Assembly (NCBI GenBank): GCA_947474565.1
Contig: CANJIS010000003.1
Span: 62,001 to 126,000 of the forward strand
Origin: Alphaproteobacteria bacterium
GTDB taxonomy: Bacteria; Pseudomonadota; Alphaproteobacteria; Micropepsales; Micropepsaceae
DNA length: 64,000 nt
Direction: 5' to 3'
The notes under the pieces are model-generated. The model was not told where the DNA came from. It did no database searches and saw only the letters and a list, made by a program, of their open reading frames with translations. A program made the position numbers and the translations under genes. Every line of letters begins with the position of its first letter. Positions within the stretch are counted from its first letter, which is position 1. Shown here in pieces: positions 9,468 through 14,957 of the stretch.

Positions 9468-9770
9468 ATGGATACCTCCACCTTTAGCACGATCCTGCCG
9501 CTCATTTTGATCATGGGGATCATGTATTTTCTGCTGATCCGGCCGCAGCAGCAGCAGCAGAAAAAACTGCGTGAAAAGATCGACGGCGCCCGTCGGGGCG
9601 ACACGGTGGTGACGGCCGGCGGCATCCTGGGCAAGGTGGTCAAATCCGGCGACGCCAATGACCCGGAACTCCTGGTCGAAATCGCCGACAATGTGCAGGT
9701 GCGCGTATTGCGGGGCACCCTCACGGACGTGCGGCCCAAGAACGAACCGGTGGAAGCGGACAAGAACTGA
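9468..9770 (+). CDS. yajC: Sec translocon accessory protein YajC
   Basis: Small inner-membrane partner of SecDF. Of its 100 residues, one helix (about 8-24) ends in the hallmark LLIRPQQQQQKK. The cytoplasmic domain with GDTVVTAGGILGKV follows. The TGA stop shares a base with the secD ATG, giving translational coupling. Confidence 0.96.
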   Translation: MDTSTFSTILPLILIMGIMYFLLIRPQQQQQKKLREKIDGARRGDTVVTAGGILGKVVKSGDANDPELLVEIADNVQVRVLRGTLTDVRPKNEPVEADKN

Positions 9771-11377
9771 TGCTGCAGGTTTCTATTTTCACCCGCATCA
9801 TGGTCGCGCTGGTGGTTCTGGGGGGGCTGCTGGTGGCGCTTCCCAATGCACTTCCCAACAGCATCACCGCCAAAATTCCGTCCTGGCTGCCGCATAATTC
9901 CGTGAGCCTGGGGCTGGATCTTCAGGGCGGCTCCTATCTTCTTCTCGAAGTGGATTTTGCCCAGGTCCAGCGCGACAAGGCGCAGGCGACTGTCGGCGAT
10001 ATCCGCGCCGGGCTGCGCAAGGCCCGTATTCAGTATCTGGATCTCAGCACCCGCAACGACACCGTCCGGGTGCGTGTGCCGGACGCAGCCTCCCGCGCCC
10101 AGGCGCGCACGATCCTGGATGGTCTCAATCCGCAGCTGGGCGGCACGGTGCTGACGGTCGGCGGCGGCAAGCAATATGATCTCACCGAGCAGGACGGCCT
10201 TTTCACCCTGACCATGACGCAGGGTTACAAAACCCAGACGCATGAGCAGGTGCTGGAACAATCCTTGGAAGTGGTGCGCCGCCGTATCGACGAAATGGGC
10301 ACCCGCGAACCCAATATTACCCGCCAGGGCGAAGACCGCATCGTGGTGGAAGTGCCGGGTCTGGCGGACCCGGGCGAACTCAAGGCCATCCTGGGCAAGA
10401 CTGCCAAGATGACCTTCCAGCTGGTGGATGAGACCGCCAATGTGGCGTCGCCCACCGTGCCGGCGGAAGATGAAAAACTGCCGATGACCAGCCAGACCCC
10501 GGGGGTCCCGGGCGGCGAGGTCATCGTACAGCGCCGGATCATGGTGTCCGGTGACCGGCTCACCGATGCCGGTTCCGGTTTCGACCAGCAGACCGGCCAA
10601 CCCGTTGTCACCTTCCGTTTTGACTCGGTTGGCGCGCGGCAGTTCGGTGATGTCACCAAGGATAATGTCGGTCATCGCTTCGCCATCGTGCTGGACAAGC
10701 AGGTGATCTCCGCTCCCGTCATTCAATCCGCGATCCTGGGCGGCAATGGCCAGATCACCGGTAACGGCACCGTCAAGGAAACCAACGATCTGGCGCTGCT
10801 GTTGCGCGCCGGCGCGCTGCCCGCGCCGCTGACCGTCATCGAGGAACGCACCGTGGGCGCCGAGCTGGGCGCCGACTCGGTCAAGGCTGGCCGCTATGCC
10901 GCCTTGGGCGGGTTGTTCATGGTGACGCTGTTCATGATCCTGCGTTACGGCCTGTTCGGCCTGTTCGCCGATGTGGCGCTGACGCTGAACGTCGTGCTGC
11001 TGCTGGCGGCGCTGACCTTGTTCGGCGCGACGCTCACATTGCCCGGCATCGCGGGCATCGTGCTGACCATGGGCATGGCGGTGGACGCCAACGTGCTGAT
11101 CTATGAGCGTATCCGCGAAGAACAGCGCAATGGCCGCTCCATTCTGGCCTCGATCGACCAGGGATTCCGCCGCGCCATGGCCACGATTATCGACGCCAAC
11201 ATGACCCACTTGATCGCTTCGCTGATTCTGTTCGAACTGGGCTCCGGCCCGGTCAAGGGGTTCGCCGTGGCGCTGGGCGTGGGCATCATCACGTCATTCT
11301 TCACCTCGGTGATGGTGACGCGGCTGATCGTGATCGCCTGGCTGAACATCACCAAGCCCCGCACGCTGGCGATCTAG
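9770..11377 (+). CDS. secD: Protein translocase subunit SecD
   Basis: SecD and SecF use the proton motive force to pull exported proteins to the periplasm. It is 535 residues, normal for SecD alone. One N-terminal helix (about 8-30) is followed by LGLDLQGGSYLLLEVD (the D1 motif) and a large periplasmic domain. Five C-terminal helices contain LPGIAGIVLTMGMAVDANVLIYERIREE. The ORF ends after the sixth helix and no SecF sequence is fused. No secF follows in this window, although secF is the usual next gene. A G7 run at 9830-9836 lies in frame in this intact gene. Confidence 0.97.
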   Translation: MLQVSIFTRIMVALVVLGGLLVALPNALPNSITAKIPSWLPHNSVSLGLDLQGGSYLLLEVDFAQVQRDKAQATVGDIRAGLRKARIQYLDLSTRNDTVRVRVPDAASRAQARTILDGLNPQLGGTVLTVGGGKQYDLTEQDGLFTLTMTQGYKTQTHEQVLEQSLEVVRRRIDEMGTREPNITRQGEDRIVVEVPGLADPGELKAILGKTAKMTFQLVDETANVASPTVPAEDEKLPMTSQTPGVPGGEVIVQRRIMVSGDRLTDAGSGFDQQTGQPVVTFRFDSVGARQFGDVTKDNVGHRFAIVLDKQVISAPVIQSAILGGNGQITGNGTVKETNDLALLLRAGALPAPLTVIEERTVGAELGADSVKAGRYAALGGLFMVTLFMILRYGLFGLFADVALTLNVVLLLAALTLFGATLTLPGIAGIVLTMGMAVDANVLIYERIREEQRNGRSILASIDQGFRRAMATIIDANMTHLIASLILFELGSGPVKGFAVALGVGIITSFFTSVMVTRLIVIAWLNITKPRTLAI

Positions 11378-11398
11378 AGCCGATTGGCGCTGTGCCCG

Positions 11399-11419
11399 GA
11401 AAGGCCTATAAAGCCTTTC
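11399..11419 (+). other. Hairpin between secD and the PuuD-like gene
   Basis: Arms GAAAGGC (11399-11405) and GCCTTTC (11413-11419) enclose a 7-base loop. There is no T-tract. It may stabilise the secD message or attenuate read-through; it is weak evidence for either. Confidence 0.4.
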
Positions 11420-11444
11420 AGACTCAAGGCGGGAGGGGCAGTCC

Positions 11445-12068
11445 ATGGCGTTTCTAGGAAATCTTCGCAATGTGGTGATCGTCAGCTTCGTGCTGTCGAT
11501 CCTGCTGATCGGGCTTTACTGCACGGTGCAGGGCTTCGACGCGGTCACCTTCGAAATGTTCACCTTGCGCTGGCTGCATGTGGTCTGCGGCGTCATGTGG
11601 ATCGGGCTGCTCTGGTATTTCAATTTCGTCCAGATCCCCACCATGCCCAAAGTGCCGGACGAACTGAAAAAGGGCGTGACCGGCTATATCGCGCCGGAGG
11701 CTCTGTTCTGGTTCCGCTGGGGCGCCATGGGCACTCTGTTTTTCGGCATCGTGCTGGCCTTCCGCAGCAATTACCTGATTGACGCCTACACCCTGGACTT
11801 CAGCCAGGGCCTGCAGGGCTGGCCGGTTGTGCCCAGGTCGCTGGCCATCGGCATCGGCATGTGGCTGGGCACCATAATGTGGTTCAATGTCTGGTTTCTG
11901 ATCTGGCCCAACCAGCAGAAAGTGCTGAACATCGGCGGCAAATTCTCCGACATCGCGCCGGCCGACAAGGCCGCCGCCGCCAAGACCGCCACGATGTTCA
12001 GCCGCATCAACACGCTGCTGTCCATTCCCATGCTGTTCAGCATGGTTGCGGCTGGGCATCTGTACTAG
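11445..12068 (+). CDS. PuuD-like (DUF989) membrane protein
   Basis: The 207-residue integral membrane protein has about four to five hydrophobic helices. It resembles the membrane part of the urate-hydroxylase PuuD family: RWLHVVCGVMWIGLLWYFNFVQ near residues 40-60, with a His and Trp-rich helix that in relatives is thought to bind haem, and FNVWFLIWPNQQKV near 150. The cytochrome c domain found in full PuuD is absent. Short homologues are widespread in proteobacteria without purine genes nearby, and none are seen here, so urate oxidation is not supported. GGGAGGGG lies nine bases before the ATG. It occupies the usual secF position. Confidence 0.75.
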   Translation: MAFLGNLRNVVIVSFVLSILLIGLYCTVQGFDAVTFEMFTLRWLHVVCGVMWIGLLWYFNFVQIPTMPKVPDELKKGVTGYIAPEALFWFRWGAMGTLFFGIVLAFRSNYLIDAYTLDFSQGLQGWPVVPRSLAIGIGMWLGTIMWFNVWFLIWPNQQKVLNIGGKFSDIAPADKAAAAKTATMFSRINTLLSIPMLFSMVAAGHLY

Positions 12069-12108
12069 GTTTCCGTTCGCGGGCATGGGGCCCGCATAAC
12101 GGGTTCCT

Positions 12109-14160
12109 ATGCTTCTGCGCCTTTCGCGCTTTGTCCATCTTCTGCCCGTCGCCCCTGACAGGGTGCTGATCGTCGACGCCATCAGCCACGTCCGGCTGGT
12201 GGTGAACGGGCAAGTCGCACAGCGGGTTGCGGGTTTCGCACAAGCCGCCGAAGCGGCGGCGGGCGACCCTTTCCTCTCCGATCTTCTGGCACGGGGCATT
12301 CTCACCGCTAAGACGCCGGAAGAGGAAACGGCCCACGTCGCGGGTCTGCTGGCGCCGTATCACGGCCGCGATCCGGACGAGATGCTGGATCGCTATCGCC
12401 GCAAGGCGCGTGAAGGCGTGGAATCCTATTTCGCCGCGACCCAGGCGCTGACGGCGGAAGATTTCACCGCCGGAAAATATCAGGCCGAGCTTCTGCTGTT
12501 CGGTGATTGCGATGTGCAGGTCGAAGCCGATTTCCTGCGCCGCGAAGCCGCCGGACGCGACATCTCTCTCAAGATCGCCGCCAGCTTTCCCAACGATCTG
12601 CGTCTGGCGGAAGAGCACGCCCATGACGCCATCCTGATCGGTGCGCTTCGGCGGCGCTTCGCGATTCCGGGGGAGGGCCACGAGGCGTTTATTGCCGAAG
12701 CGCGCGTCCTTCTTGATGGGTTGCGCCGTCACAGCGCCAAGCCGATCCTGATCGACAATCTGCCCGAACCGGTGGTGGAGCCTTTGGGACTGGCCGATCA
12801 TGGGCCGGCCGGGCATCGCAATCGCTTCCGCGCCGCCAACCTGGCGCTGGCTGCGCTCGTTTCTGAATATGCCGATGTCCATGTCGTGGATATTGCCGCC
12901 GTGCTGAACGCGGCGGGCGCCGAACGCCTGCTGGATGACGGTTTGATGCATTTTTCCCATTTCGGCTCGCCCGGCTGGTTGTTGCAGCGGCCCGAGCAGG
13001 AAAAGGCGGCCGTCTTCGGCATCTTCCCCGATGTAAGCGATTTCGCTGCTGGTCTGGGCGGCGATCCCTATTTGCGGGAAAAGATTACCGCCCGCGCACA
13101 CATTGATGCGGTGATGACGGCGTTGGCCATCGATCGCAAAAAATGCGTGATCGTGGATCTGGATGGATTGCTATGGCCCGGCGTGTTGGCGGAGACCGGC
13201 GCGCCCTTTGACTGGCGGCCAGAAGTATCCAGTCCTTATTCCTATGTCGGGCTTTATTTCGGACTGCATGACGCCCTGCTCAGCCTCAGGCAGCGCGGCA
13301 TCCTTTTGGCCTGCGTCAGCAAGAATGATGAAGCCACGGTGCGCGAATTGTGGAAATACGCGCCGCACTATGCCGGTCTTAATTTGTTGACCCCGGGCGA
13401 TTTCGTCACCTGGCGGGTCAACTGGAACGACAAGGTCGATAATATCCGTTCCATCGCCGACGAACTGGGTCTGGCGCTGGAGACGTTCCTGTTCCTGGAC
13501 GACAATCCGGTGGAGCGGGATCGGGTGCGCCAGCGCCTGGCCGATGTCGAAGTCTGGGGTGAAGACCCATTTTCTTTGCGCCGCCGGCTCTTGACCGATC
13601 CGCGGCTGCAGATGCCAAACGTCACCGCAGAATCCGCGCGCCGCACGGAAACCACCAAGGCGCAACTGGGCCGCCAGGCGGCGAAGACGCAAAGCGTCAG
13701 CGAGAAGGATTTTCTGACCTCGCTGAATTTGGACATCAAAATCGCGCCTTTGGCGGCGGGAGAAGGGCTGCGCGTATCAGAATTGTTCCAGCGCACCACG
13801 CAATTCAACACCAATGGCGCACGTTTTTCGGCGGGCGAGCTGGAAACGCTGGCGCGCGATCCCGGCGCGCGTGTTTTGACCGCGCACGTCAAGGACCGCT
13901 TCGGCGATCATGGGCTGGTGGGCGCCGCCGTGATCCAGGGCGATGAAATAAAAGGCTTGGTCTTAAGCTGCCGGGTGCTGGGCATGGGGGTGGAGCATGA
14001 ATTTCTCCGCCATATTCTGCGCGCCGCGCCCGGCAAGGAATTAAGAGCCCGCATCGTCGAGACTGCGCGCAATATTCCGGTCCGCAATATCTTCAAGGAT
14101 CATGATTTTGCCCTGGAAGCGGGTGTGTGGCGCCGCGCGCTGGAGCCAGCCCTGCCGTGA
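12109..14160 (+). CDS. FkbH-like HAD-IIIC protein with extra N-terminal domain
   Basis: The 683-residue multidomain protein has, at about 325-480, a HAD-IIIC phosphatase-like domain with DLDGLLWPGVL, LACVSKND and FLFLDDNPVERD, the FkbH-family motifs. A GNAT-like C-terminal third follows (RFGDHGLVGAAVI near 590). Residues about 120-310 look like the SGNH-type domain often found before FkbH (LLFGDCDVQ). The first 80 or so residues (SRFVHLLPV...FLSDLLARGILT) look like the PqqD/RRE-type winged helix found in front of radical-SAM peptide enzymes; this is my pattern match, untested. FkbH proteins normally load a glyceryl or similar unit on a carrier protein, and no carrier or polyketide gene is nearby. 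Substrate unknown. Confidence 0.8.
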   Translation: MLLRLSRFVHLLPVAPDRVLIVDAISHVRLVVNGQVAQRVAGFAQAAEAAAGDPFLSDLLARGILTAKTPEEETAHVAGLLAPYHGRDPDEMLDRYRRKAREGVESYFAATQALTAEDFTAGKYQAELLLFGDCDVQVEADFLRREAAGRDISLKIAASFPNDLRLAEEHAHDAILIGALRRRFAIPGEGHEAFIAEARVLLDGLRRHSAKPILIDNLPEPVVEPLGLADHGPAGHRNRFRAANLALAALVSEYADVHVVDIAAVLNAAGAERLLDDGLMHFSHFGSPGWLLQRPEQEKAAVFGIFPDVSDFAAGLGGDPYLREKITARAHIDAVMTALAIDRKKCVIVDLDGLLWPGVLAETGAPFDWRPEVSSPYSYVGLYFGLHDALLSLRQRGILLACVSKNDEATVRELWKYAPHYAGLNLLTPGDFVTWRVNWNDKVDNIRSIADELGLALETFLFLDDNPVERDRVRQRLADVEVWGEDPFSLRRRLLTDPRLQMPNVTAESARRTETTKAQLGRQAAKTQSVSEKDFLTSLNLDIKIAPLAAGEGLRVSELFQRTTQFNTNGARFSAGELETLARDPGARVLTAHVKDRFGDHGLVGAAVIQGDEIKGLVLSCRVLGMGVEHEFLRHILRAAPGKELRARIVETARNIPVRNIFKDHDFALEAGVWRRALEPALP

Positions 14161-14957
14161 TGGATCCCATTTTGGTCAACCGGCTGGCGGATACGGTGCG
14201 CCGCAACGATCCCGACCGCTATTTCTCGCATCTGTTCGCGCCGCCCGCCGCCCGGCCTTTGCTGCTTGTGCTGTATGCCTTCAACCATGAAGTGGCGCGG
14301 GTAGCCGAAACGGTGCGCGAGCCGATGCTGGGCGCCATCAAGCTGGAATGGTGGCGCGAGACGTTAGAGGGCGCCTTTTCCGGCAATCCCCGCAATCACG
14401 ATGTCGCCAAAGGGCTTGCCGCCTTGTTCCAGGAAAAGACCCTGAAGCTGGCGGATTTCGAGGCGATCATCGCGGCGCGGGCCTTCGACAGCGATGCCGG
14501 ACATTTCGCCGATCTGGCGGCGCTGGAGAACTATCTGGACGCCACCGGTGGCGGATTGATGCGGCTGGCGATAGCCATTCTGGGCGGCGATCCGGCCCTG
14601 GCGCGTCCGGCGGCGCTGGCGTATGGCCTGGCGGGTTTGTTGCGTTCGCTGAGCTTCCACAACAACCGCCACAAACTTTATATGCCGCTGGATTTGCTGC
14701 AGGCCGTTGGCGTCACGCCGGAAGTCTTTTTCACCCTGGAACATGACACCCGCAGGGCCGCCGTGGTCCGGCAATTGGCTTTGCGCGCCCGCGATCATTT
14801 TCTGGCATCGCGCAATGGGCCCAGGCCCCGCGCTGCGCTGCCGGCGCTGCTGCCGGCCGCTTTGGTGCCGGTCTATATCAAGCGGCTGGGGCGCGATGTG
14901 CCGATCCATCGGCGGCAGATGGCGCTGCTGGCGGCGGCGATGAAGAAACGACTATAA
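14160..14957 (+). CDS. Squalene/phytoene synthase family protein, NDUFAF6-like
   Basis: The 265-residue product has the trans-isoprenyl synthase fold signature: YFSHLFAPPAARPLLLVLYAFNHEVARV at about 20-47, and the EWWRETLEG and YLDATGGGLMRLA segments. The Asp-rich DxxxD motifs needed to bind diphosphates are not present (EVARVAET, and LLRSLSFHNNRHKLYMP in the second position). This places it with NDUFAF6, a complex I assembly factor, rather than with true synthases. The ATG at 14160 overlaps the FkbH-like stop (ATGA) and is preferred over an in-frame start 33 bases upstream. Confidence 0.82.
   Translation: MDPILVNRLADTVRRNDPDRYFSHLFAPPAARPLLLVLYAFNHEVARVAETVREPMLGAIKLEWWRETLEGAFSGNPRNHDVAKGLAALFQEKTLKLADFEAIIAARAFDSDAGHFADLAALENYLDATGGGLMRLAIAILGGDPALARPAALAYGLAGLLRSLSFHNNRHKLYMPLDLLQAVGVTPEVFFTLEHDTRRAAVVRQLALRARDHFLASRNGPRPRAALPALLPAALVPVYIKRLGRDVPIHRRQMALLAAAMKKRL

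Follow-up and report, generated by a model that had tools for sequence, protein, structure and literature searches.

An FkbH-type enzyme that has a peptide-recognition domain at its front and no carrier protein encoded nearby raises the question of what it acts upon. Such an enzyme is encoded in the window analyzed here (the whole stretch of 64,000 nucleotides from a member of the Micropepsaceae), by an open reading frame of 683 codons with an ATG start at 12109-14160 of the forward strand. Its translation, its match to the family model TIGR01686 (7e-64), and 13 full-length homologs all indicate a single protein of 683 aa with the layout RRE-SGNH-HAD(IIIC)-GNAT, referred to here as RRE-FkbH. 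The initial annotation had proposed, from the fusion itself, that the substrate would be a peptide or protein.

All of the domains lie on the forward strand. The RRE/PqqD-like domain (residues 1-85, 12109-12363) is a short form, lacking one helix, which was delimited by the alignment and by its own model, with the fold and profile evidence coming from the family. It is followed by a helical linker (residues 86-122, 12364-12474), placed by the alignment and the models, the helices of which have low confidence in the window model, while R87, D88, P89, R97, and R98 are invariant in 14 rows. The SGNH-like domain (residues 123-341, 12475-13131) is supported by structure matches and alignment columns, the HAD-IIIC phosphatase-like domain (residues 342-505, 13132-13623) by an NCBIfam match and alignment columns, and the GNAT-like domain (residues 540-683, 13726-14157) by a structure match to RimI (2cnm, Z 14.8). 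As all 14 homolog rows align from their first residues, the annotated start is probably right.

The assignment to the FkbH family is based on TIGR01686, which covers residues 344-670 with 216 bits, against an NCBIfam cut-off of 146.65, a cut-off that is exceeded at all 14 places where the RRE-FkbH architecture is found. The HAD-IIIC model TIGR01681 also matches residues 345-474 (2.2e-11), while Pfam gave no match on the window protein at E 0.1, and so marked neither the RRE nor the FkbH part. In an AlphaFold2 model of the full-length protein (mean pLDDT 74.8), the best structural match of the combined SGNH and HAD part is BF1531 of Bacteroides (3slr; Z 25.1, rmsd 4.2 over 332). In the same model, residues from approximately 123 to 341 match the SGNH hydrolases, and residues 542-683 match GNAT acetyltransferases, such as RimI. 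The FkbH module and the SGNH-like part named in the initial annotation are thus borne out by both the family score and the structures.

A search for the same architecture in other genomes, which had also been suggested at the outset, was productive. A pattern-based scan of 84,980 species genomes recovered nine relatives, eight of them full-length (55-59% identity in their best segments), and whole-genome searches added five extra copies in four genomes. This gives 13 full-length homologs with the same layout and 14 proteins, including that of the window, which align end to end, although one of them (L010) is partly masked in the alignment. At E 1e-60, the order yields 3 genomes with a copy out of 96, and a sample of the class 3 out of 385. 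In a sample of the phylum, an FkbH-like match was found in 48 of 398 genomes at E 1e-35, and nearly the whole query was matched only in the window's genome and in G447. RRE-FkbH is a rare bacterial enzyme. One copy (L005) lies on a contig labelled Bryobacterales (Acidobacteriota), a placement due either to a transfer or to an error in binning. When 47 FkbH cores are arranged in a tree, the RRE genes and a further relative, L025 (L025:1759-3624), form one group at 100/100, with the RRE genes alone at 64/95. This relative, which has a very long branch, carries neither an RRE nor an adjoining ACP gene, and the loss of the carrier may therefore predate the gain of the RRE, although the placement of L025 is unsure. 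It also has GSC instead of GDC, and no equivalent of Cys346.

The front domain was at first read as RRE/PqqD-like, a reading that stood to fail if the fold bore no similarity to an RRE or proved to be a simple helical linker. Residues 1-125 of the ortholog L006 were modelled with the 14-row alignment (mean pLDDT 85.2), and the model has four strands followed by three helices across residues 1-76, mostly with high confidence, which rules out a simple helical linker for residues 1-100. In a Foldseek search of the PDB with this domain, the top 21 rows, which represent several chains of a few proteins, are all RiPP enzymes, including TigE (8vpo), TbiB1, heterocyclases such as TruD, ThcOx, the dehydratases MibB/MadB, TbtB, and McbBCD; TigE is the sole row at E <= 0.001 (E 2.7e-4). 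A second structure comparison also recovered 8vpo, with a Z of 12.3 and 1.6 Å over 90 residues (TigE residues 5-94), followed by scores of 9.8 for MibB, 9.1 for MccB, and 8.7 for TbiB1. Most of the RiPP-enzyme chains fall at Z 5.9-12.3, with SuiB lower, at 4.6-4.8, and non-RiPP chains are interspersed among them (BmdC 7.6, MINA53 6.7, PKMT2 6.5). The matched parts of the listed RiPP enzymes are taken here to be their RREs.

The profile comparisons point in the same direction. In hhalign, the front-domain profile reached 86.4% against 16 PqqD-like rows (score 35.1, 71 columns), 81.4% against all 22 rows, and 12.8% against the six PQQ-type rows alone. The score of 35.1 compares with no more than 18.6 in 200 column shuffles, 10.8 for the reversed profile, and 11.8 for an ACP profile. 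Searched against the PDB, the sequence profile placed TigE (8vpo) first, but weakly (E 0.072), with interferon gamma next (0.11). In an hmmscan of the 14 front domains, there was no match to PqqD (PF05402), while HTH_27 and MarR_2 each matched two rows weakly (best 0.011 and 0.015, respectively), which favors a generic winged helix a little. A generic DNA-binding winged helix was nevertheless rejected as the best reading, given that the MarR/ArsR-type chains, among those listed, reach a Z of only 3.2-4.2. The RRE/PqqD fold is taken as established for the RRE-FkbH family, and the original reading of the front domain withstood both of the possible refutations. The mean pairwise identity of the RRE (13 rows) is 45%, compared with 51% in the GNAT part, 61% in the SGNH domain, and 76% in the HAD domain.

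The copy in the window departs from this pattern. Together with L020 and L023, it is without 12-16 mid-domain residues that are present in the other 11 of the 14 members, and its own model shows two helices, compared with three in L006. An RRE is defined, in a published account, by three strands and three helices (PMC12710340); these elements are found in the L006 model, while the window's own model is short by one helix. The window RRE is, for this reason, described as a short form, and the similarity of the fold rests on L006, rather than on the window copy.

The catalytic residues of the enzyme are kept throughout the family. In the HAD domain, D350, D352, S404, K442, D464, and D465 are invariant in all 14 proteins, as is Cys346, and, in the SGNH part, the same is true of Cys134, N217, D276, D277, and H284. 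The acyl group of the FkbH enzymes is presumably carried by a cysteine such as Cys346, an equivalent of which was found in 19 of 27 FkbH comparators with a readable motif, although several ACP-linked ones are without it. Cys134 sits in a G-D/E-C-D/E motif following the first SGNH strand, and would, judging by this position, occupy the place of the SGNH nucleophile. A cysteine of this type was absent from the ten ACP-linked comparators in which a plausible motif was located with a rough pattern and read by eye. The motif that follows the HAD nucleophile also differs, being LWPG (LWSG in L004) and AETG in the RRE genes, compared with LWGG in all of the readable comparators except L025 and L054. 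In DxDxT, the Thr is replaced by Leu in two proteins, those of the window and L020, and by Val in L023.

The absence of a carrier is the second peculiarity of the family. The FkbH domains take glycerate from 1,3-bisphosphoglycerate and attach it to carrier domains (PMC8949500, PMC7489565). Using a widened ACP profile, an adjoining ACP gene was found for none of the 14 RRE-FkbH genes, compared with 29 of 33 other FkbH genes, a count that includes ACP-containing open reading frames as well as separate ACP genes; of the 29 loci, seven were also the source of seeds for the profile. The contrast has a Fisher p of 9e-9, or 5e-7 with the ten RRE loci that have both flanks, values that ignore the fact that the RRE genes form a single clade; as this clade is one lineage, the contrast amounts to one or few evolutionary events. 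A narrower profile with two seeds, which misses a divergent type of ACP found beside FkbH proteins of 558-580 aa, gave 22 of 33 comparators and, again, none of the 14. The comparators without an ACP are L025, L054, L070, and L071, where the L054 locus is all one open frame and the flank at L070 is 274 bases long. In other Pseudomonadota (L076, L077, L079, and L080), a divergent ACP gene is followed by an FkbH-like gene of 563-572 aa, often with genes which, named by eye, are GNAT-like, MaoC-like, and polysaccharide-deacetylase-like.

The Pfam carrier family agrees with this pattern. No match to PF00550 lies within 35 kb of the gene on the gene-bearing contigs of the 13 host genomes, some of which are short, and divergent ACPs could escape this search. 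Such contigs carry a match in just two genomes, at a distance of 37.6 kb from the gene in that of the window and of more than 240 kb in G447. In the window's genome, there are two matches at E 0.001, of which one is this distant copy, upstream and outside the window, and the other adjoins the second FkbH gene, the only other one in the genome (the contig C4 paralog, one of the 29 comparators with an ACP), which has its ACP gene directly upstream. The absence of a nearby carrier, as initially claimed, is therefore confirmed.

The surroundings of the gene in the window are those of a probable insertion. It is bordered on the left by a gene for a Urate_ox_N membrane protein (11445-12068, forward strand) and on the right by a squalene/phytoene-synthase-like gene (14160-14957, forward strand), both identified by Pfam and both recognizable as borders by the empty site in relatives; the RRE-FkbH stop overlaps the likely ATG of the latter gene as TGATG. 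In seven of eight loci from relatives (L146-L150, L152, and L153), the two flanking genes, located after secD, directly follow each other with 63-167 bases between them, while no Urate_ox_N match was found in the eighth (L151). The order secD, Urate_ox_N, and squalene/phytoene-synthase-like gene (9770-14957 in the window) is thus kept in seven of the eight relatives examined. The closest RRE-FkbH copy, that of G008, is at another site, and the empty site is also present in that genome (L148). The empty site in seven relatives points to the probable gain of a single gene in the window, without an oxygenase, a carrier, or a precursor. At L006, for its part, a formyltransferase gene (PF00551/PF02911; L006:5150-8112) overlaps the start of RRE-FkbH by four bases.

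Conserved small open reading frames beside the gene in other genomes, which had been proposed as a further check on a peptide substrate, did not materialize. Among 819 open reading frames of 20-160 aa within 3 kb of the gene at the 14 loci, there were only three short, unrelated matches, in a comparison that could miss very divergent or uncalled peptides.

The new observation here is that a gene of a redoxin/2OG-oxygenase family (approximately 370 aa) neighbors 7 of the 14 RRE-FkbH genes (L004, L005, L007, L018, L021, L022, and L023), and that these oxygenases come from two deep lineages. Five of the seven partner proteins were scanned with Pfam; each contains a 2OG-Fe(II) oxygenase domain, and four have an AhpC/TSA-like part in front of it. 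The metal and 2OG ligands of such oxygenases, HxD...H...R, are invariant in all seven. Five of the partner genes share the strand of RRE-FkbH and are separated from it by no more than 47 bases, and the other two are divergent or convergent. Among the seven loci without this neighbor, L006, L008, and L009 have each lost one side at the end of a contig, while no neighbor of this kind is present at L020, L003, L010, or in the window, whose genome yielded no such gene at E 1e-10.

This oxygenase family is present in 56 of 289 genomes of the class, and, of 30 loci taken from them, only the known place at L018 adjoins an RRE-FkbH gene. A single standard partner for the family everywhere was considered and rejected, since the 30 loci show no common neighbor by eye. 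At L041:1515-5190, an unlinked oxygenase gene is divergent from a TPR and family-41 glycosyltransferase gene, and, at L043:994-5216, another is divergent from an anaerobic ribonucleotide reductase gene (NRDD), which is followed by a gene that looks, by eye, activase-like. In an oxygenase tree of 40 rows, the linked genes fall into two deep groups, forcing at least three changes, a number as low as which was reached in one of 500 shuffles. One of these groups also includes unlinked genes from G479 and G483, both of which have RRE-FkbH elsewhere in the genome. In G447, two RRE-FkbH copies lie 84 kb apart, and their partner oxygenases belong one to each of the two groups. This repeated pairing is the best evidence of joint action.

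The reading preferred here, with a probability of roughly 40%, is that an FkbH-type acyl transferase has been redirected from a carrier to a polypeptide that its RRE grips. The N-terminal RRE would do what the ACP does in most members of the FkbH family, gripping a peptide or a segment of a protein. The HAD part, with Cys346, would convert a phosphorylated glycerate to a C3 acyl-enzyme, with the removal of the phosphate, a reaction for which FkbH uses 1,3-bisphosphoglycerate. The SGNH part may then hold the acyl group on its Cys134. The GNAT part would transfer this group to an amine or a hydroxyl of the held polypeptide, the gene for which probably lies elsewhere in the genome. In hosts with the oxygenase, that enzyme probably hydroxylates the polypeptide as well. 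The proposal in its full detail, that is, the carrier-free attachment of a C3 acid to a polypeptide, in which the RRE picks the protein, the HAD and SGNH cysteines replace the ACP, the GNAT part transfers, and the 2OG-oxygenase co-modifies in many hosts, is tentative and rather unlikely to hold in every part.

This reading is supported by the fold and profile of the RRE, by the FkbH residues kept in all 14 proteins with no ACP neighbor in any of them, by the single clade, by the pairing with oxygenases of two deep lineages, twice in one genome, and by the retention of the RRE, at 45% identity versus 51% in the GNAT part. It is weakened by the absence of a precursor or conserved small open reading frame within 3 kb, by the shortened RRE in three of the 14 members, including the window, by the seven loci with no oxygenase neighbor and the window's genome with no such gene, and by a chemistry that is drawn from homology, where Cys346 is itself absent from some ACP-linked FkbH proteins. 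Of the initial interpretation, the fold and the missing carrier are, then, upheld, while the polypeptide substrate that it suggested from the fusion finds no support in the small open reading frames, the short window RRE, or the existence of RREs described as possibly vestigial.

The RRE-like domain may instead be a docking or dimerization module, in a glyceryl transferase that still depends on a carrier, namely an ACP supplied in trans, such as AcpP. This is somewhat less probable, although folds of this type do extend beyond the RiPP enzymes, to BmdC, an oxidase complexed with an NRPS module, at Z 7.6, and to ribosomal oxygenases at 6.7 or less. The protein also retains Cys346 and the HAD motifs, as do many FkbH proteins linked to an ACP, and PP-binding matches, one or more per genome, occur in 12 of the 13 host genomes. 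Against this reading stand the ACP gene that most of the comparators have beside them (29 of 33, against none of 14), the altered motif after the HAD nucleophile (LWPG, LWSG, and AETG, rather than LWGG), and the prominence of the RiPP enzymes among the best structural matches.

It is less probable still that the domain is vestigial, and that the enzyme modifies a sugar, a lipid, or a small molecule directly. Possibly vestigial RREs are on record (PMC7470986), and the loss of a helix in the window copy is in keeping with such a fate. The closest RRE-less relative, L025, also without an ACP, lies amid methyltransferase-, sulfotransferase-, and glycosyltransferase-like genes, as judged by eye from the sequences, and TPR-glycosyltransferase neighbors are found both at the RRE-FkbH locus L009 and at the unlinked oxygenase locus L041. 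A relic, however, would hardly keep nine invariant front-domain residues across 14 rows, nor its full length in 11 of them. A dedicated RiPP pathway, in which both enzymes act on a short precursor peptide encoded far away, would account for the fusion of an RRE to a possible tailoring enzyme and for the oxygenase gene beside half of the copies, but is improbable, given that no small open reading frame common to the loci was found and that the window gene is a lone insertion without the oxygenase.

If the re-aiming of the transferase to a polypeptide is correct, central metabolism, through phosphoglycerate, would be tied to a new modification of proteins or peptides, and a carrier-bound reaction would have been redirected to polypeptides by the exchange of its partner for a recognition domain. 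RRE-FkbH represents a compact, single-gene enzyme for testing, and an additional RRE fusion for genome mining. Among the open-licence PMC papers searched, nothing was found that combines "RiPP recognition element" with "FkbH", or "RRE-Finder" with "phosphoglycerate", and those that mention both FkbH and RiPPs concern, by their titles, other matters. The word FkbH is absent from the main text of a 2025 survey of RREs, although the fusion may figure in its supplementary tables.

Among the known systems, the FkbH family glyceryl transferase/phosphatases of the FK520, tetronate, and vioprolide pathways, as described in PMC7489565 and PMC8949500, share the HAD-IIIC and GNAT core and the conserved catalytic residues. 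RRE-FkbH differs from these in its N-terminal RRE, in the lack of an adjoining ACP gene, and in its altered post-nucleophile motif. The SGNH-HAD core is like that of BF1531 (3slr) and of the contig C4 paralog, whereas the RRE in front sets RRE-FkbH apart, as does Cys134 in the SGNH motif in comparison with the ten ACP-linked proteins read by eye, and the paralog, unlike RRE-FkbH, has its ACP gene directly upstream. The RREs of TigE (8vpo), a radical-SAM protein, and of further RiPP enzymes (TbiB1, TruD, and MccB) have the same fold, and that of TigE is also N-terminal, but here the domain is fused to an FkbH-type enzyme, with no precursor gene found adjoining. The GNAT maturases of the selidamides and nostolysamides acylate ribosomal peptides, as the GNAT part of RRE-FkbH would likewise do. 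These maturases use fatty acyl groups, whereas the acyl source of RRE-FkbH would come from its own fused HAD part.
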